Source of the DNA: Chryseobacterium gleum
GTDB taxonomy: Bacteria; Bacteroidota; Bacteroidia; Flavobacteriales_D; Crocinitomicaceae
DNA length: 36,795 bases
Assembly (NCBI GenBank): GCA_945902775.1
Contig: CAMDMY010000025.1
Span: forward strand, 1 to 36,795
Direction of reading: 5' to 3'
The position numbers and the translations under genes are program-made. Of this stretch, positions 5,085 to 28,177 are shown piece by piece. Position 1 is the first letter of the stretch, and each line of letters starts with the position of its first letter. Below the pieces are notes generated by a model. That model did not search any database. It was not told the origin of the DNA and worked only from the letters and a program-made list of their open reading frames with translations.

Positions 5085-5453
5085 ATGAACACGTTAAGAA
5101 ACAAAGTAAGTTTAATTGGAAGAATTGGTCAAAACATTGAAATGCAAAAAGTAGGTGCGTCAAAAGATTATTCTTTAGTGAAAGTATCGTTAGCAACGAG
5201 CGAAAATTACAAAGACAAAAACGGACAATGGCAAGATAACACACAATGGCATAATTTAGTAATCTGGGGTAAAACAGCAGAACGTATGTCAAATACGATT
5301 ACTAAAGGACAAGAAATTATGATCGAGGGGAGATTGGTGAACAAGCAATATGAAAAAGACGGTGAAAAAAGATATTCTACTGATATTGAGGTAACTGATT
5401 TCTTATTGGTTTCAACTAGAACAGCTGAAAAAACAGAACAAGAAGTGAAATAA
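5085..5453 (+). CDS. ssb: Single-stranded DNA-binding protein, paralog 1
   Basis: The 122-residue protein is one OB fold of the bacterial SSB family: NKVSLIGRIGQNIE at the start, then VKVSLATSENYKD, the conserved TQWHNLVIWGKTAE, and GQEIMIEGRLVNKQYE. The invariant W-H-x-V pattern and the GRL strand are all present. The C-terminus (TAEKTEQEVK) lacks the acidic DDxxF tip that classical SSB uses to recruit repair and replication proteins, and the Gly/Pro-rich linker is missing too. It is first of three tandem paralogs (61 and 73 bp apart). It is thus unlikely to be the main replication SSB; a role in recombination, uptake or regulation is possible. Confidence 0.92.
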   Translation: MNTLRNKVSLIGRIGQNIEMQKVGASKDYSLVKVSLATSENYKDKNGQWQDNTQWHNLVIWGKTAERMSNTITKGQEIMIEGRLVNKQYEKDGEKRYSTDIEVTDFLLVSTRTAEKTEQEVK

Positions 5454-5514
5454 TCAACTTCAACCCATTCTTAGAAACAAGTTTAATTTTAATAATCATT
5501 CAAAACGCTACATT

Positions 5515-5829
5515 ATGAATCACGTAAATTTAATTGGTAAAATGTGTTCAACTCCAAAGATTGTTGAACTAGAAGGAGGAAAAAAAATCGCTCAATTTAC
5601 GCTTTCTACCAAAGAAACGTACTTAGATGAGAAAGGAAATCCGAAAAGTAGAAGTCAATGGCATCAGTTAGCCGCTTGGGGAAGATGGGTTAAAATTCTA
5701 GAAGAACTTGGATCGGTTGGCATGGGAATGGCCGTTGAAGGTAAATTAATAACTCGTTTCTATAAAAACAAAGAAGGAGAACGGAAGTATATCTCACAAG
5801 TAGAAGTAAATGATTTAGTAATTCTTTAA
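5515..5829 (+). CDS. ssb: Single-stranded DNA-binding protein, paralog 2
   Basis: A 104-residue single OB-fold protein: MNHVNLIGKMCSTPKI, KIAQFTLSTKETYLDEKG, the SQWHQLAAWGRW core, MAVEGKLITRFYKNKEGE and a final VEVNDLVIL strand. The sequence ends directly after the OB fold, with no linker and no acidic tip. It differs clearly from its neighbours (for instance AAWGRWVKILEELGSVG instead of VIWGKTAERMSN), so the cluster is not a recent triplication. Same strand and close spacing suggest transcription with paralogs 1 and 3. Confidence 0.9.
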   Translation: MNHVNLIGKMCSTPKIVELEGGKKIAQFTLSTKETYLDEKGNPKSRSQWHQLAAWGRWVKILEELGSVGMGMAVEGKLITRFYKNKEGERKYISQVEVNDLVIL

Positions 5830-5837
5830 ATCTTATT

Positions 5838-5880
5838 CTCAACCTCAACCTCAAACTTAATTTTAACCTCAATCTTAATA
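5838..5880. repeat. CTCAACC-type short repeat between ssb genes
   Basis: The spacer between paralogs 2 and 3 is an irregular array of CTCAACCTCAACCTCAAAC, TTAACC and CTCAAT words ending in TTAATAAATT. A similar string (CTCAACCTAAACCTCAAT) with TATAATAAATT lies at 13903-13929, at the end of the LytTR gene. Confidence 0.45.
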
Positions 5881-5902
5881 AATTAATCTAAAAACTTGAA
5901 TT

Positions 5903-6229
5903 ATGAATATTTTAAAAAATCACGTAACGTTAGTTGGAAATATGGGAATGCCACCCCTGATTACACAGTTTGAGAATGGAAATAAAATCGCACGATTTAG
6001 TTTAGCGACCGATAACTTATACAAATCAAAAAATGGCACCGATGAAAAAAATACCGAATGGCACCGTGTTTTTGCCTGGGGTAACATGGCTCAATTTATT
6101 GAGAACTATGGCGAAAAAGGCAAACAATTAGCAATTCACGGAAGGCTGGTTAACAGAACCTATCTTTCCAAAGAAGGACAAAAAAGAAATATCACCGAAA
6201 TAGAGATAAAGCATATAATTGGAATGTAG
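5903..6229 (+). CDS. ssb: Single-stranded DNA-binding protein, paralog 3
   Basis: This 108-residue OB-fold protein begins MNILKNHVTLVGNMGMPP and has the SSB core: KIARFSLATDNLYKSKNG, NTEWHRVFAWGNMAQ, LAIHGRLVNRTYLSKEGQ and a final ITEIEIKHIIGM. As in its two neighbours the acidic C-terminal tip is absent, so protein-partner recruitment through that tip cannot occur. It ends the cluster; a strong inverted-repeat terminator follows about 70 bp later. The TAG stop codon overlaps the first copy of a short GTTAATTTGAAAAT direct repeat. Confidence 0.9.
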   Translation: MNILKNHVTLVGNMGMPPLITQFENGNKIARFSLATDNLYKSKNGTDEKNTEWHRVFAWGNMAQFIENYGEKGKQLAIHGRLVNRTYLSKEGQKRNITEIEIKHIIGM

Positions 6230-19378: not shown

Positions 19379-20458
19379 ATGGAAGATTTACTAAAAAAAC
19401 TAGAAGCAATTAATTACCGATTTGTAGAAGTTGGAACATTGATTGTGGATCCTGATATTATCTCAGATATGGATCGCTATGTTAAACTGAGTAAAGAATA
19501 CCGTGATTTAGAAGAAATTGTTTCTGCTTATAAGGAATATAAAAATATTTTCGACAATCTCAAAAGTTCAAGAGAAATGCTTGAAAAAGAGAAAGATCCT
19601 GAAATGCGTGACATGGCAAAGATGGAAATTGATGAGTTGGAACAAAAACGACCTATCGTAGAAGAAAATATTAAAATGTTATTGATTCCAAAAGATCCTG
19701 AAGACGATAAAAACGCCATCATGGAGTTACGTGCGGGTACTGGAGGTGACGAAGCGTGTATTTTTGTGGAAGATATTTTCAGAATGTATACCATGTTTTT
19801 CAAGGAAATGGGCTGGAAGTACGAAGTAATTAATTCTTCTGAAGGAACAACAAAAGGGTACAAAGAGATTTCAATGAACATTGAAGGGATGGGTTTATAT
19901 GGAATGTTAAAATTTGAATCGGGTGTTCACCGTGTTCAACGTGTTCCTGAAACAGAATCTCAAGGCCGTGTTCATACTTCAGCGATTACGGTAGCTGTTT
20001 TACCAGAAGCAGAAGAAGTTGATTTTGAATTAAATATGGGTGATGTCCGAAGAGATACTTTCCGTGCATCAGGAGCTGGAGGTCAGCATATTAACAAAAC
20101 TGAATCGGCAATTCGTTTAACACATATTCCAACAGGTTTAGTAGTTGAATGTCAAGATGGTCGTTCTCAACATAAAAATTTAGCGCAAGCAATTACCGTA
20201 ATGCGTTCACGTCTTTATCAAAGAGAATTAGATCGAGTTCATGAAATAAGAGCGGCTCATCGTAAAACATTGGTTTCTACAGGAGATAGATCAGCAAAAA
20301 TTAGAACGTATAACTATCCTCAAGGTCGAATTACAGACCATCGAATAGGTAAAACAATTTACAATCTTTCTTCATTTATGAATGGAGACATACAAGAAAT
20401 GATCGATTCATTAAAAATGGCCGAAAACGCCGAAAAAATGAAAGGAGAGGAAGTGTAG
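19379..20458 (+). CDS. prfA: Peptide chain release factor 1
   Basis: The 359-residue factor reads UAA and UAG stops and triggers peptide release. The peptidyl-transferase motif GGQ is at 234-236 in SGAGGQHINKTESAIR. The codon-reading loop is RVPETESQGRVHTSA, with PET in place of the PxT motif of RF1 (RF2 would have SPF), so it is RF1. The N-terminal PCRF domain (LRAGTGGDEACIFVEDIFRMY) is complete. The stop codon TAG lies within a 20-bp direct repeat. Confidence 0.97.
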   Translation: MEDLLKKLEAINYRFVEVGTLIVDPDIISDMDRYVKLSKEYRDLEEIVSAYKEYKNIFDNLKSSREMLEKEKDPEMRDMAKMEIDELEQKRPIVEENIKMLLIPKDPEDDKNAIMELRAGTGGDEACIFVEDIFRMYTMFFKEMGWKYEVINSSEGTTKGYKEISMNIEGMGLYGMLKFESGVHRVQRVPETESQGRVHTSAITVAVLPEAEEVDFELNMGDVRRDTFRASGAGGQHINKTESAIRLTHIPTGLVVECQDGRSQHKNLAQAITVMRSRLYQRELDRVHEIRAAHRKTLVSTGDRSAKIRTYNYPQGRITDHRIGKTIYNLSSFMNGDIQEMIDSLKMAENAEKMKGEEV

Positions 20459-20526
20459 CTTCCGAAGACTGAGGTTCCGTTTGGAAAACGGATAAAACCG
20501 AGGGAAGAAGTGTAGCTTCCGAAGAC
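20450..20526. repeat. 20-bp direct repeat overlapping the prfA stop
   Basis: GAAGTGTAGCTTCCGAAGAC occurs at 20450-20469 and again at 20507-20526. Each copy forms a small GGAAG/GAAG...CTTCC hairpin. Between them CCGTTT/AAACGG makes another stem. The first copy holds the prfA TAG stop codon. This stretch is more GC-rich than its surroundings. Confidence 0.8.
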
Positions 20527-20630
20527 CAAACGTTAGTGCTGGCCCTCTATCTCTTAGTCAGTTAAGAAATGTTCGCATTATATTAATTTTAATCATTTTA
20601 TTCTTTTTTTTCTTGCCCTTAATATTTTTT

Positions 20631-20990
20631 TTACTCATAAAACTTTGTCGTCAAGCGATTTTTTAAAATTTCAATAGCCAATAAAGTTACCTCATAGTAT
20701 GATTTTATAGATTTTTCATGTTCTTTTTTTATATAAAATTCAAAGAATAAAAAATGACAAATTATATAAATAAAAAACACCCATAAACTGAAGCCTTTTA
20801 AACAGGTAATATAAGTAAAGAATGATATAAAAATTAAAAAAGTAAATACAAAGGCAAATTTAAGCGAGGAAATTATTCGCATAAAATAGAAAAATAATAT
20901 ACACTTAATTATCTCCGGCTTTTTTGCAGATTTAGTTTTTAAATCATCCAACATTTTTTCATCTTCAGCGTTAAATATTTCTCGTATCAT
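20631..20990 (-). CDS. Small membrane protein, function unknown
   Basis: The 119-residue protein has a charged N-terminus (MIREIFNAEDEKMLDDLKTK), then two or three hydrophobic helices (about 29-57 and 64-88) rich in Phe and Ile, then a Lys/Glu-rich C-terminus with a probable helix (SYYEVTLLAIEILKNRLTT). No family is recognised. It is unusually AT-rich even for this window and lies alone in an accessory stretch between prfA and a regulator gene on the other strand. Its codon and base use and Phe-rich make-up are consistent with transfer from elsewhere. Confidence 0.6.
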   Translation of the reverse strand: MIREIFNAEDEKMLDDLKTKSAKKPEIIKCILFFYFMRIISSLKFAFVFTFLIFISFFTYITCLKGFSLWVFFIYIICHFLFFEFYIKKEHEKSIKSYYEVTLLAIEILKNRLTTKFYE

Positions 20991-21113: not shown

Positions 21114-21171
21114 TTGATTTATTTTTTATTGTTTCAGCAAAGAAACACTCTTAATGAAGATAAGTCAAATA

Positions 21172-21359
21172 TAGTGTGTCATTAGTGTGTCATTGTTTGA
21201 TTTTTATGATTTATATTTGAAAATCAAACCAAACTAATTTTAGTAATACTACATCCATCTACTGATAATACTCTAGATATGATAAAATGCAAGATCAAAT
21301 AAAAGTATACAAAAGCTTATCCAAAGCACTGGCGACACACTATTGTCGCTCTATTTTTG
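21172..21359 (+). promoter_or_regulatory. Promoter and operator-like sites before the HTH regulator
   Basis: TATTTTTG (21352-21359), a consensus -7 box, lies 32 bp before the regulator start. Directly upstream is GCGACA (21332-21337 region) paired with TGTCGC (about 21344-21349). The word TAGTGTGTC occurs twice in tandem (21172-21180, 21183-21191) and once inverted as GACACACTA (21334-21342) inside this palindrome. The repeated site suggests binding by a regulator, possibly the product of the next gene. The rest of 20991-21391 is plain AT-rich DNA. Confidence 0.5.
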
Positions 21360-21391: not shown

Positions 21392-21985
21392 ATGACAAAG
21401 AATAATGAAAGTTTTATTTACGCCATATGGTGTGAAAATGAGCAAAATATACAACTATTACAAACTGCTATTTCGAAAATAACTGACAATTGTTTGGTCT
21501 TGAAAAACATAAAATCGATTTTCAAAAAACCTAAAGTTGTTGTTTTTGTAGAGGAAGAACTCTTGCATGAATCATTTTTTGGAGATAATAAAAATATCTG
21601 TGAAAAGATTGAAGATTTGCAGTGGTTTGTTATTGTAATAGGACATAAGAAAAAATTAAACCCTTTCCCATATATGGCTAAAAGAATTGATAAACCATTA
21701 AAAAGTGTTTCGCAAATAGCGCCTGTTTTGGATAAAATTAGTGCTTCAGCCCAAAAGCCTAATTCAAGAAACAATGTTTTAGCTAAAAAAATGAACAGGT
21801 TATTTTATATCTATCATTGCCTGTACGAAAAAGAAAAAATTACTTACGAGGAAGTGAAAAATATCTCAAATATAAGCCAAAGGACATTCTTCAGAGATTT
21901 GGATACATTAAGAGAGGTGTTGGTGACACAAACCATTACTTATGATGAAAATGAAAAACATTACACCATAGATTATATTAAATAA
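21392..21985 (+). CDS. Degenerate receiver-like domain fused to DeoR-type winged HTH
   Basis: The 197-residue protein has a C-terminal helix-turn-helix (about 130-197): YHCLYEKEKITYEEVKNI then SQRTFFRDLDTLREVL, the form of HTH_11/DeoR-type winged helices used by WYL-type regulators, though no WYL domain follows. The N-terminal 115 residues alternate strands and helices (IYAIWCENEQNIQLLQ, PKVVVFVEEELL, WFVIVIGHKKKLNP, RIDKPLKS) like a receiver fold, including the Lys-Pro pair near its end. The acid pocket and phospho-Asp are not evident, so it would be a pseudo-receiver. It is followed 4 bp later by the next gene. This reading is inference; the specific family is not recognised. Confidence 0.6.
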   Translation: MTKNNESFIYAIWCENEQNIQLLQTAISKITDNCLVLKNIKSIFKKPKVVVFVEEELLHESFFGDNKNICEKIEDLQWFVIVIGHKKKLNPFPYMAKRIDKPLKSVSQIAPVLDKISASAQKPNSRNNVLAKKMNRLFYIYHCLYEKEKITYEEVKNISNISQRTFFRDLDTLREVLVTQTITYDENEKHYTIDYIK

Positions 21986-21989
21986 AACG

Positions 21990-22388
21990 ATGCAATTGAT
22001 TAATCATATTGGTGAAAAATTTGAAATTCGTATACTAGGCAAACAAAAACTGTCTAATAATGAAACGGTTGAATGGTGGTACAAAAGCACTATCATAATT
22101 ACAGAGGGAGGAAAAAAAAGAAAAACAAACCTTAGATTTTTAACGCGGGAAGATTTACATCTTTTAAGTTCTTGGCTGGAAAATCTCATGCAGTATAATT
22201 ATGAAAAAACTGTATTTGAATTTGTTGATGCGCATGTATGGTTTCGTTTATGGAAAAAAGGTGATGAGCGTTTCTTGCGTTTTTTTATTCAGGGTGATAA
22301 GTACCGCAAATTTTATTGGGATTGGAGGTTGTCAAAAATTAACTTAAATTTATTTAAATCTTATATGGCTGCATTAATGACAATTTGA
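21990..22388 (+). CDS. Small protein of unknown function, possibly WapI-like
   Basis: The 132-residue protein starts MQLINHIGEKFEIRILGKQ and contains many aromatic residues (EWWYKSTIIITEGGKKRK, DAHVWFRLWKKGDERFLRFF, KFYWDWRL). A beta-rich pattern with FEIRILG at the start, a mid-region helix (LTREDLHLLSSWLENL) and a later FEFVDAHVWFRL strand recalls the WapI-type immunity proteins, but the match is weak and from memory. It lies 4 bp after the HTH regulator gene and so is surely co-transcribed with it. No signal peptide or membrane segment is seen. Confidence 0.6.
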   Translation: MQLINHIGEKFEIRILGKQKLSNNETVEWWYKSTIIITEGGKKRKTNLRFLTREDLHLLSSWLENLMQYNYEKTVFEFVDAHVWFRLWKKGDERFLRFFIQGDKYRKFYWDWRLSKINLNLFKSYMAALMTI

Positions 22389-22573
22389 TTAAATAAGATT
22401 TTGATTAAAAATTCAAAATAGGACTCTTGAAAAATTTATTCATTTTTTAATAAGTAATTGATTTTTATGTACTTTTTAAGCAAAGTAAATTGTGCGGTTA
22501 TTAGGTCAAAAAGTTTTGAAGATTTGGGGAGAGTGGATTTGAAAAAATGTAGAATTAAAATAAAACTTGTAAA

Positions 22574-23563
22574 ATGATAAATTTAAAAGCATACAGATTT
22601 AATAGCGAAGAACTTATAGCCATAAACCAATTAAAAGATCTTTTTGAAGGTAGTGGATATATTTTGGAACGTTTTCCTGAAGTTTATTATGATGATTATG
22701 AAACTTTGCCTTTTAAAATAAATCACGAAACCCAAGAAGAAGATACTCCTGACTATTTGGCTGTTTATTTCTATGATTATATTTCTGATAATTCTCAACG
22801 AACAATTGAAGGTAAAATTATATTATTCAAAGACAGAATTGAAGACTTCGCCTATAGAAAGGAAATTAGTGTTGACGATTTAAGGTACATTTTGTTAATG
22901 CATGAATTTGGGCATTGGCTTTGTCATTGGCCAATTTGTAATAATAATAATTGGAGTTTTGGTTTTGCTGTTAAAAATAAAAAAACCAAAGAATCACTTG
23001 CGCAATTGATTGCATATTGGATGGTTGATGGAAAAAAAAATAAAGAAGCAATTTTAAATGAATATTTAACCCCAAAAAATAAAACAAACCCTTACTATTT
23101 GTACAATAATTTAAAGGATAAATCAAAATCTGAAATGTTGCATAAAATAATTTCATTACGAGAAAACTATTTTTTAAGTGATGAAAGTATGTATCAGTTC
23201 CTGCTAGAAAAAGAAAAAAATACAATGTTTGAATTTTTAATTAGTTTCTTTTACAATGAAATTAAAATGTTTGATAAGAATACAAAATTGTTTAATGATT
23301 CTGATTTCCCAGCATCAACAAGAGACTATTCAGAAGAAATTTTTTTATTAGATAATGAAGTAAGTCCAATTACTTTTGATGATTTGTTCCTTCTTAAATT
23401 AGAAAGAACACTTAAATCAAAAGATGAAATTGGAAAATTTGATACTGGGACTGGATTATTAGAGCGTATCGAATATTTTTACGATATTAATGACGACTAC
23501 TACCAGGAATTAGTGGATTTATTTAATAATTACAGAGGTTCAATCACTGGGAACAATTACTGA
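22574..23563 (+). CDS. Zincin-like protein with HExxH motif
   Basis: The 329-residue protein has no family I recognise, but HEFGH (110-114) in LLMHEFGHWLCHW fits the metal site of zincin proteases. A Glu at 140 in KESLAQLIAYWMV, on a later helix, is placed like the third zinc ligand in ImmA/IrrE-type peptidases. No signal peptide or membrane segment is seen, so it would act in the cytosol. The DNA is extremely AT-rich, and the gene stands after a 185-bp spacer downstream of the regulator pair, with a strong terminator after it. Proteolysis of a repressor is a family role of ImmA but only a guess here. Confidence 0.6.
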   Translation: MINLKAYRFNSEELIAINQLKDLFEGSGYILERFPEVYYDDYETLPFKINHETQEEDTPDYLAVYFYDYISDNSQRTIEGKIILFKDRIEDFAYRKEISVDDLRYILLMHEFGHWLCHWPICNNNNWSFGFAVKNKKTKESLAQLIAYWMVDGKKNKEAILNEYLTPKNKTNPYYLYNNLKDKSKSEMLHKIISLRENYFLSDESMYQFLLEKEKNTMFEFLISFFYNEIKMFDKNTKLFNDSDFPASTRDYSEEIFLLDNEVSPITFDDLFLLKLERTLKSKDEIGKFDTGTGLLERIEYFYDINDDYYQELVDLFNNYRGSITGNNY

Positions 23564-23705: not shown

Positions 23706-24179
23706 CTATTTTCCTTTTCCTTCAGTAACTCTTAAACCGATATCTAATACTTCATCGATTTTAGAATCTGTAATCCCTTGTTCTAAGGTAAACGTATACT
23801 TCCCTTTTTTAGGCAATCTACGATTATTAAATTGTAATGGAAGTTCAACGATTGTACCTGTTTTAATTCCAGCCCAAGATCCATCTGGATTTGTTACTGC
23901 AATTTGAAAAGGTTCTCTTGCTTTTGTTCCATCTGGTGTTATTGTATTCATATAAATCCATAAATTACTGAATTTATAGTCAGTCGTTGTTCGAAGAGTA
24001 ATCGCGAAGTTATATTCAATATTAATGTCCTTAATATCGATTGTGAAACTTGGCTTTACCCGTTGCGACCATTCATTGTTTTTAAATGAATACACTTTTT
24101 CGTAAAATGGTTGCTCAGAACAAGAATAAAGCACACCTATTAATAGACAATAAAAGAGATACTTACGCATTGTTTTCAT
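23706..24179 (-). CDS. gldH: Gliding motility lipoprotein GldH
   Basis: The 157-residue protein has a lipoprotein signal: KYLFYCLLIGVLYSC with the lipid-attached Cys at 20. The mature part is a beta-rich domain matching GldH in pattern: FYEKVYSFKNNEWSQ, then NFAITLRTTTDYKFSNLWIY, PFQIAVTNPDGSW and a YTFTLEQG strand. GldH is required for gliding in Flavobacterium johnsoniae and is a marker of Bacteroidota. It overlaps the end of ricT by 17 bp (an ATG at 24170 would give 8 bp), so the pair is co-transcribed, as in many Bacteroidota. This suggests gliding or a retained non-gliding role. Confidence 0.9.
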   Translation of the reverse strand: MKTMRKYLFYCLLIGVLYSCSEQPFYEKVYSFKNNEWSQRVKPSFTIDIKDINIEYNFAITLRTTTDYKFSNLWIYMNTITPDGTKAREPFQIAVTNPDGSWAGIKTGTIVELPLQFNNRRLPKKGKYTFTLEQGITDSKIDEVLDIGLRVTEGKGK

Positions 24180-25819: not shown

Positions 25820-28177
25820 CTACCCTGAACACATTTCACAGTTTTCTGGATTTTCCAAAGAACAAGCGATTGCATTTTGAGCATCTAAATCTTCAGTTGT
25901 TGAATCATATACCATTGCTTTGTCTACAGTGAATTTAATTGCGTCTGTAGCGGCTTTCGTTCTTAGGTAGTACATTCCAGTTTTCAATCCTTTTTCCCAT
26001 CCGTAGAAGTGCATTGAAGTTAATTTTCCAAAGTTTGCATTTTCCATGAAGATGTTCAACGATTGAGATTGGCAAATGTATGCACCTCTATCTGAAGCTA
26101 AATCAATGATTGATTTTTGTGAAATTTCCCAAGCAGTTTTGTATAAATCTTTCAAATTTTGAGGAATTTCAGAGATATTTTGAATAGAACCACTTGTTGA
26201 CATAATTGTTTGACGCATTTCTTTTGTCCACAATCCTGCTTTCACTAAATCTTTTAATAAATGTTTGTTAACGATGATGAATTCACCTGAAAGTACACGT
26301 CTTGTATAAACGTTAGATGTGTATGGTTCAAAACATTCATTGTTTCCTAAAATTTGAGCAGTAGAAGCTGTTGGCATAGGAGCTAATAACAATGAGTTAC
26401 GAACACCGTATTTTTTCACTTCTTCTTTTAATACATCCCATTCCCAACGTGGAGATGGAGTTACATTCCACATATCTGGTTGGAAAATTCCTTTCGATAC
26501 TGGAGAACCTTCGTAAGATGCGTATGGTCCGTCAACTTTTGCTAAATCTTTAGAAGCAGTCATTGCTGCATAATAGATTGTTTCAAAAATCTCACTGTTT
26601 AATGTTCTTGCTTCTTGAGATTCAAACGGGAAACGCATCATAATGAATGCATCAGCCAATCCTTGAACACCTAATCCGATTGGACGGTGACGGATATTTG
26701 AATTTCTTGCTTCTACTACAGGGTAGTAGTTTTCATCAATAACTTTGTTTAAGTTAATTGCTGCTTGGTAAGAAACTTCGAATAATTTATCGTGATCAAA
26801 TACTCCTTCATCTGTTACGAATTTTGGTAACGCAATAGATGCTAGATTACAAACTGCAATTTCGTCTGGAGAAGTGTACTCGATAATTTCTGTACACAAG
26901 TTAGAAGACTTAATAGTACCTAAATTTTGTTGGTTAGATTTAGCGTTCGCAGCATCTTTGTACAACATATATGGTGTACCAGTTTCGATTTGTGATTCTA
27001 AAATTTTGAACCATAAATCTTGCGCTTTGATTGTTTTTCTACCTTTTCCTTCAGTTTCGTATTTTGTATATAACTTCTCGAATTCAGCACTGTGTGTATC
27101 AGATAATCCTGGACATTCGTGAGGACACATTAATGTCCAATCTCCATTTTCTTTCACACGTTTCATGAATAAATCTGGAATCCATAAAGCGTAGAATAAA
27201 TCTCTTGCACGCGCTTCTTCTTTTCCGTGGTTCTTTTTCAAGTCCAAGAAATCGAAAATATCTGAATGCCATGGCTCGATGTAAATAGCGAAAGATCCTT
27301 TTCTTTTACCTCCACCTTGGTCAACGTAACGAGCTGTGTCATTGAATACACGTAACATCGGCACGATACCATTTGACTCACCATTTGTTCCTTTGATGTA
27401 TGAACCTTTTGCACGAATATCGTGAATTGATAAACCAATACCACCAGCAGATTGTGAAATTTCAGCACAGTTTTTCAACGTGTCATAAATTCCTGCGATG
27501 CTATCTTCTTTCATTGTTAACAAGAAACAAGATGACATTTGAGGTTTTGGAGTACCTGCATTGAACAAAGTTGGTGTAGCATGTGTAAACCATCCTTCAG
27601 ACATCATGTTATACGTTTTGATAGCTGATTGAATATCACCTTTGTGAATTCCAACAGATACACGCATTAACATTTGTTGAGGACGCTCAACGATTTCACC
27701 GTTCAATTTCATTAAATACGAACGAGTCAATGTTTTGAAACCGAAGTAATCGTATTTGAAATCACGGTCATAGATAATACTTGAATCAAGAGCTTCTCTA
27801 TTTTCCATAATTACATTGTACACATCTTCAGCTAATAAAGCTGCTTTCTCCCCAGTTTTAGGATCAATGTATGAATACAAATCTTCCATTACTTCAGAAA
27901 ATGTCTTTTTCGTTTCTTTGTGTAAGTTAGATACTGCGATACGAGATGCTAACAAAGCATAATCTGGGTGATCAATTGTTTTTGCTGCTGAAACTTCAGC
28001 TGCTAAATCATCAAGGTCGGTAGTTGTAACCCCATCATAAATCCCTTCGATCACTTTCATTGCTACTGCTTCTGGAGACACCAATGGGTCTAAACCGTAA
28101 CACATTTTAATAATTCGAGCAGTTATTTTGTCAAATTTTACAGGCTCTTTTCTACCGTCTCTTTTTACTACGTACAT
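25820..28177 (-). CDS. nrdA: Ribonucleoside-diphosphate reductase, alpha chain (class Ia)
   Basis: The 785-residue large subunit reduces ribonucleotides to deoxyribonucleotides. The N-terminus is an ATP-cone (about 1-90, [14 protein letters not shown]). Active-site residues are visible: Cys in [16 protein letters not shown] with the radical Cys and Glu, [10 protein letters not shown], and the radical-transfer region with SNVYTRRVL. The C-terminus ends CEMCSG, the redox Cys pair. Motifs such as CPHECPGL and [19 protein letters not shown] resemble the eukaryotic R1 closely. nrdB lies 42 bp upstream on the same strand; terminator after nrdA. Confidence 0.98.

Follow-up and report, generated by a model that had tools for sequence, protein, structure and literature searches.

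A candidate local autorepressor and its putative palindromic operator in a rare, possibly conflict-type gene cassette

CapW and BrxR are WYL-domain repressors of CBASS and BREX. According to PMC9122588, CapW represses from palindromic sites that overlap promoter elements, and its control is bidirectional. CapS is a STAS-wHTH repressor of immune operons and the partner of the kinase CapK. In the description given in PMC13373217, CapS has an N-terminal domain of 111 residues and a C-terminal winged helix-turn-helix (wHTH) reaching to residue 184, and its sites lie at its own and at a second promoter. Here we describe a regulator gene with its promoter and neighbours. We propose that the regulator represses its own gene, as the local switch of a rare conflict-type cassette, through a palindrome at its promoter; our confidence in this reading is only a little above even.

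The window (the whole 36,795-nt stretch analysed) is contig 25 of a 3.09-Mb genome in 168 contigs. The cassette is flanked on the left by a gene ending at 20458, which we take by eye to be prfA, and on the right by gldH (23706-24179, minus strand, by Pfam). The presence of gldH and the type of promoter suggest a genome from the Flavobacteriaceae. Immediately to the left of the cassette, two direct copies of the 20-nt sequence GAAGTGTAGCTTCCGAAGAC were seen by eye (20450-20526), one where prfA ends and the other 57 nt further on. Elsewhere in the window (5085-6229), three consecutive genes resemble, by eye, single-stranded-DNA-binding protein paralogues. The regulator gene is as follows.

21392-21985, plus strand: regulator ORF of 197 aa with an ATG start; N-terminal alpha/beta region at about aa 1-120, winged HTH at about aa 125-195

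Two other loci carry related regulators. The L010 contig is filed under a Sphingobacterium thalpophilum bin, and its regulator allele is 97% identical over the 93 residues present on the contig. The near-identical cassette allele in this bin reflects either transfer or misbinning. The 93 common codons hold 5 synonymous and 3 non-synonymous changes (dS 0.106, dN 0.013), giving a dN/dS of about 0.12 on 8 changes only. G222 is a genome of another genus in the same family, and its regulator is 33% identical to that of the window.

The wHTH of the window regulator matched the PADLOC WYL model at positions 2-47 of 229 (E 1.2e-5), and the G222 regulator matched it at positions 2-53. Pfam HTH_11 gave E 0.025 for the window regulator and 1.7e-4 for that of G222, both below the cut-off, and the FUR match of the window regulator was similarly weak (E 0.019, Pfam). 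When the wHTH model was compared with solved structures, BrxR came out best (Z 8.9, 2.9 Å, 69 aligned residues), together with a second BrxR row (Z 8.4, 2.0 Å, 67 aligned) and CapW (Z 8.4, 1.7 Å, 71 aligned). The CapW and BrxR rows overall covered Z 7.5-8.9, rmsd 1.7-2.9 Å and 64-71 aligned residues, and ScpB-like and NiaR rows at Z 8.0 were tied with them. As modelled, the wHTH resembles that of CapW and BrxR. By sequence, the regulator found nothing convincing among solved structures (best E 0.07). Its chain stops at residue 197, directly past the wing. The first-pass annotation had named a DeoR-type HTH. The PADLOC WYL, HTH_11 and CapW/BrxR structure matches support a predicted C-terminal winged HTH of the HTH_11/WYL-regulator kind, but DeoR as such was absent from the matches listed.

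The same annotation had read the N-terminal fold as a receiver with a KP pair and no evident phospho-Asp. The region would then be an aspartate-less receiver joined to the wHTH, working like orphan response regulators without phosphorylation, which we regard as doubtful. The AlphaFold2 model of the whole regulator, from two rows, had pLDDT 69.3 and pTM 0.62, and the N-terminus modelled alone, from three rows, had pLDDT 61.9 and pTM 0.55. Strands and helices alternate in the models, which speaks for a receiver; in the whole-regulator model they are strand 9-13, helix 17-30, strands 34-36 and 49-53, helices 60-63 and 69-76, strands 79-84 and 97-99 and helix 106-118, then the winged HTH. K101-P102 follows the last predicted strand, and G222 has the same pair. 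The third predicted strand ends at residue 54, which is E in the window and D in G222, and Glu is given in PMC4395418 as the most frequent substitute in aspartate-less receivers. No canonical DD pair was found in the N-terminus. Receivers also occurred among the weak Foldseek matches of the N-terminus (DesR, RstA, VicR and Spo0A at E 0.19-0.32), mixed with AAA+ and other proteins. With these low-confidence models (pLDDT 62-69), Foldseek, the kind of fold search that had been suggested as a check, returned nothing below E 0.001, with receivers only at E about 0.2-0.3. The 50 VIA-align rows listed for the N-terminus, a weak model, were P-loop and other proteins (Z 6.7-8.0); that receivers are missing among them is not evidence against a receiver at this model confidence.

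At the level of sequence, Pfam gave no Response_reg match for the regulator at E<=1. A receiver profile was built from 13 rows recovered from 30 receiver loci of the same genome, with three row pairs being duplicates. Profile-profile comparison (hhalign) of the N-terminus with these receivers gave a probability of 0.09%, and 170 of 200 column shuffles in the local mode, and 140 of 200 in the global one, scored as high as the N-terminus. In contrast, all 13 left-out receiver rows (7 of them with no duplicate remaining in the profile) and the window's own receiver were recovered at more than 97%. The KP pair and the missing DD pair held, but the receiver assignment had no profile match above shuffles. 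Because an hhalign query of two or three rows can easily miss a domain that has diverged strongly, we treat the receiver assignment, on sequence grounds, as unproven rather than refuted.

The promoter region holds four features.

21334-21347, plus strand: proximal putative operator GACACACTATTGTC, core of the palindrome at 21332-21349; the pattern is also exact in L010 (twice) and G222 (once)
21352-21359, plus strand: -7 box TATTTTTG of the regulator promoter; fits TAnnTTTG and is identical in L010
21166-21191, minus strand: distal putative operator plus -7 module GACACACTAATGACACACTATATTTG; holds both tandem copies of TAGTGTGTC on the plus strand
21166-21173, minus strand: -7 box TATATTTG facing the divergent gene; TAAATTTG at the L010 counterpart

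The word TAGTGTGTC had been noted twice in tandem and once inverted inside a palindrome beside the -7 box, and this arrangement was confirmed, with exact copies at 21172-21180 and 21183-21191 (plus strand) and 21334-21342 (minus strand). The inverted copy sits in the palindrome GCGACA-CACTAT-TGTCGC (21332-21349), which has perfect 6-bp arms. With at most one mismatch the word had 10 matches in the window versus 4.13 expected, and none of 100 shuffles reached 10. The whole 3.09-Mb genome holds 7 exact copies (3 of them here) versus 5 for the reversed-pattern control. The clustering is therefore genuine, although the word carries no genome-wide signal.

In a flavobacterium, the -7 consensus reads TAnnTTTG (PMC9723704). 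The putative operator unit is not TAGTGTGTC itself but the palindrome GACACA-N4-TGTC, 4 nt upstream of a -7 box of this type. The full-module pattern (operator plus -7 box) occurs in the window exactly at 21334-21359 (plus strand) and with 1 mismatch at 21166-21191 (minus strand), and the distal module is 81% complementary to the proximal one. Two modules per window compare with 0.29 expected, and 3 of 100 shuffles reached two; these counts are descriptive, since the operator pattern was derived from the same loci in which it is counted. The tandem TAGTGTGTC copies are best read, from their sequence, as one minus-strand operator with a changed left arm, not as a direct-repeat element. A generic sigma-70 scan was uninformative (16 sites versus 21.2 expected).

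Comparison with the two related loci pointed in the same direction. In L010 the proximal palindrome is conserved except for one arm base, and the place of the tandem TAGTGTGTC copies is taken by another palindrome that matches the operator pattern exactly. The two matches in L010 sit on different strands, and 4 nt separate each of them from a TAnnTTTG box; relative to them, the distal window site has changed and lost its left arm. In G222 the single match lies upstream of the regulator, and the distance from operator to ATG is 59 nt, as in the window. The G222 -7 box, TAGAATTG, fits TAnnTTTG imperfectly and is spaced as in the window. A second operator at a divergent promoter is absent from G222, where the only other GACA-N6-TGTC falls in another ORF. 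In a fixed register from the ATG, the upstream regions of the window and G222 are identical at 20 of 27 positions, and none of 5000 Markov resamples was as good; in a free register, 5 of 500 were. The fixed-register comparison is the firmest sequence test of the operator. These results support a putative palindromic operator common to three loci, one of which is nearly identical to the window.

The palindrome might instead be the stem of an intrinsic terminator or attenuator. A terminator scan flagged 21331-21350 with a T run, and RNA hairpins were predicted for the proximal module of the window (-9.8 kcal/mol, z -2.43) and for the proximal (-7.5, z -1.76) and distal (-5.8, z -1.73) modules of L010. 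However, the T run is found only at the proximal window and L010 modules of the five modules, the distal window module is unfolded (0 kcal/mol, z 0.42), and the G222 module folds no better than shuffles (z -0.12). DNA bases and spacing are conserved while RNA folding is not. Because the hairpin is missing in the distal window and G222 modules, we judged this reading highly improbable.

In the own genome the exact operator pattern has 2 matches, one at this locus and the other within a coding region at 27124 that we take by eye to be nrdA, with no control matches. Regulation by the predicted operator therefore looks local. A genome-wide regulon is not supported by this count of 2 or by the 7 versus 5 copies of TAGTGTGTC and its control. 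The proposed search for the site elsewhere thus recovered the palindrome in L010 and G222 and gave no genome-wide TAGTGTGTC signal.

At both window modules the operator sits between the -7 box and the expected -33 place. For this reason, occlusion of RNA polymerase, and hence autorepression, would be the simplest reading of the operator's place, by analogy with CapW, which it matches. TTG is the consensus of the -33 box. No -33 TTG was seen at either window module, so the regulator is possibly an activator instead of a repressor.

Four further features surround the regulator gene.

20631-20990, minus strand: divergent gene of 119 aa with a hydrophobic part from about aa 27 to 88; also next to the L010 regulator
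21990-22388, plus strand: partner gene, WapI-like, 132 aa, starting 4 nt after the regulator
22518-22543, plus strand: 3' scrap of a SLOG-like gene, with a frame ending WGEWI-stop
22574-23563, plus strand: HEXXH metallopeptidase-like protein of 329 aa, with H110-E111-H114-W115-H118-W119 and E140

The divergent 119-aa protein had no Pfam match. Its gene differs from that of L010 by 8 synonymous and 20 non-synonymous changes (dN 0.072, dS 0.133). It evolves faster than the regulator, and these sequences suggest only weak constraint. Likeness between the window and L010 (86%) starts at 20630, where the 119-aa gene stops, and continues up to the end of the L010 contig at 21670. Left of the shared stretch L010 carries other genes, by eye presumably an M13-type peptidase and a HicA/HicB-like pair. 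Because the likeness stops at this point, it is probable that the regulator and the 119-aa gene travelled together.

The partner had been called a gene of unknown function, and this is to be revised. It matched Pfam PF24716 (WapI-like) over nearly its full length with 29.8 bits, versus a cut-off of 27; the G222 partner stayed below the cut-off (23.4 bits). Conservation is higher for the partner than for the regulator (61% versus 33% identity in G222). Regulator and partner were both found in the same 2 of 399 genomes of the order, own included, in the same order, with a gap of 4 nt in the window and 1 nt in G222. That the pair is kept together in G222 makes the suggested small, undescribed regulatory module plausible. 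No title describing such a module stood among the papers listed in literature searches of a library with few subscription papers.

In the G222 operon the partner is followed by a 210-aa gene, SLOG-like by eye, and this in turn by an HEXXH gene. The 210-aa protein had no Pfam match; its one relative in plasmid records is 46% identical and lies on the Microscilla plasmid pSD15. In the window, partner and HEXXH gene are separated by 185 nt, and this gap holds the scrap. Its best 26-nt stretch agrees with the 3' terminus of the G222 gene at 23 of 26 positions, a score that none of 300 Markov resamples of the gap attained. The window and G222 HEXXH proteins share 27% identity across 137 aa, with E 4e-10 as a single comparison. 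Given the G222 order, the scrap and the similar HEXXH gene, the ancestral cassette probably ran regulator, WapI-like, SLOG-like, HEXXH. Because of the 185-nt gap, the HEXXH gene of the window is only a candidate for co-transcription with the operon.

The SLOG-like scrap also fits a module in decay, that is, an orphan regulator and an immunity-like gene that outlasted a larger, now lost system. The altered distal operator arm, the weakly constrained 119-aa gene and the rarity of regulator and partner agree with such a remnant. But the frames of regulator, partner and HEXXH gene are all open, the promoter is conserved with L010, and the regulator's low dN/dS, for all that it comes from 8 changes only, speaks for maintenance. 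We think decay improbable.

The cassette is rare, occurring in 2 of 240 genomes of the family, own included. A regulator profile matched 21 of 395 class genomes at E<=0.01, at full length only in the own genome; the other matches (16.5-22.5 bits) covered part of the profile, most of them the HTH. Three partial matches were rejected as other proteins by eye on ORF lists. With the partner profile, matches came from 8 of 247 class genomes, and only the own genome matched strongly (270 bits; others 16.7-20.1). Neither window protein of the pair matched plasmids, phages or viral contigs, their profiles matched no viral contig, the G222 regulator matched neither viral contigs nor plasmids, and the HEXXH and 119-aa proteins matched no plasmid. 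prfA was found in 10 of 11 genomes of the genus, and none of 7 other window genes tried lay on the 10 prfA stretches (2.5-8.2 kb), so that insertion into a clean site was not demonstrable.

The HEXXH protein had only Zincin_1 (E 0.14) and AHJR-like (E 0.3) among the Pfam matches listed, with no ImmA/IrrE match, and solved structures gave a best E of 0.13 for the family by sequence. When 8 members are aligned, 18 columns are invariant, and the seven residues given above fall within these. This uncharacterised family occurs in 17 of 240 genomes of the bacterial family, own and G222 included. The gene context was taken from 15 stretches of 14 of the 15 other genomes, G034 being left out. NADAR genes were often neighbours (7 of 15 stretches, a count that is uncontrolled for the general frequency of NADAR genes in these genomes; two by Pfam and the rest by BLAST to these). 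A small related gene, u134, lies directly 3' of the HEXXH gene on 5 of 15 stretches, a cpYpsA SLOG gene on 2 (identical copies in one genus) and a SIR2-like gene on 1. The HEXXH genes of L068-L082 near NADAR and the small related gene may possibly form a conflict system of their own.

The HEXXH protein could also be an intracellular or delivered toxin with the WapI-like protein as antidote, the regulator only keeping their ratio. The partner's match to an immunity-protein family favours this, as do the HEXXH relatives, which stand alone or within proteins of 607-871 aa, and u134 directly after them. The domain lies in 827-871-aa proteins at L073 4128-6611, L074 3466-6081 and L075 468-2984; the large L074 protein had no Pfam match at E<=0.01. 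However, no secretion signal or delivery domain was identified, neither the regulator nor a WapI-like gene was found on the 15 stretches (BLAST 0.01, ORFs of at least 70 aa), and the G222 partner is below the WapI cut-off. We hold a toxin and antidote pair to be rather unlikely.

Alongside the observed conservation and place of the operator, the gene order in two lineages and the family matches, we infer the steps of local autorepression as follows. The C-terminal winged HTH, as a dimer, would bind GACACA-N4-TGTC just upstream of the -7 box and block RNA polymerase at the regulator's own promoter. In the window and L010 it may also block the divergent promoter, which points towards the 119-aa membrane-protein-like gene. 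The controlled operon would comprise the WapI-like and HEXXH proteins, directly in G222 and probably in the window, and the cassette genes may be a mobile conflict-type set (toxin-immunity or defence). Release of the DNA would be brought about by the N-terminal alpha/beta region, acting as a sensor; no match was found in support of this role. If local autorepression is true, a compact layout of alpha/beta sensor and CapW-like wHTH would join the few known conflict-operon switches, and an immunity-like family would gain a regulated operon context. A bolder version, which we consider unlikely, is a new class of Cap-type controller for adjacent conflict operons, with a small wHTH repressor, a new alpha/beta sensor and a WapI-like/SLOG-like/HEXXH cassette whose peptidase is an effector or cleaves the repressor. 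It adds a divergent membrane protein in one lineage.

CapW and BrxR gave the top structure rows for the wHTH of this regulator. The palindromic site overlapping promoter elements and the bidirectional control described for CapW (PMC9122588) have counterparts here that are predicted from sequence. Unlike in CapW and BrxR, the wHTH is C-terminal, with no room behind it for WYL or WCX domains, and the regulator has 197 aa versus 266-290 residues in the chains listed. The partner resembles the WapI-like family PF24716, above cut-off and over nearly its full length, but by eye no WapA-type toxin gene was noticed among the window ORFs, and the context is a regulator operon. CapH-CapP and PprI-DdrO, as far as described, likewise pair a DNA-binding repressor with a metallopeptidase; the HEXXH protein, however, had no ImmA/IrrE model among its matches listed, and the 15 stretches of its relatives lack this regulator. 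The aspartate-less receivers RitR and ChxR share a DNA-binding output, the K-P pair and Glu/Asp at the possible acceptor place, but the regulator has no detectable receiver sequence similarity. As to CapS, no STAS match of the regulator was listed at E<=1 (Pfam), and the models are too weak to tell the fold. An adjacent CapK kinase gene was not found, the 119-aa, WapI-like and HEXXH neighbours having no kinase match, and the CapS half-site, TTAA, is different. In layout the regulator nevertheless agrees with CapS as described in PMC13373217, a likeness drawn from descriptions and not from sequence comparison.
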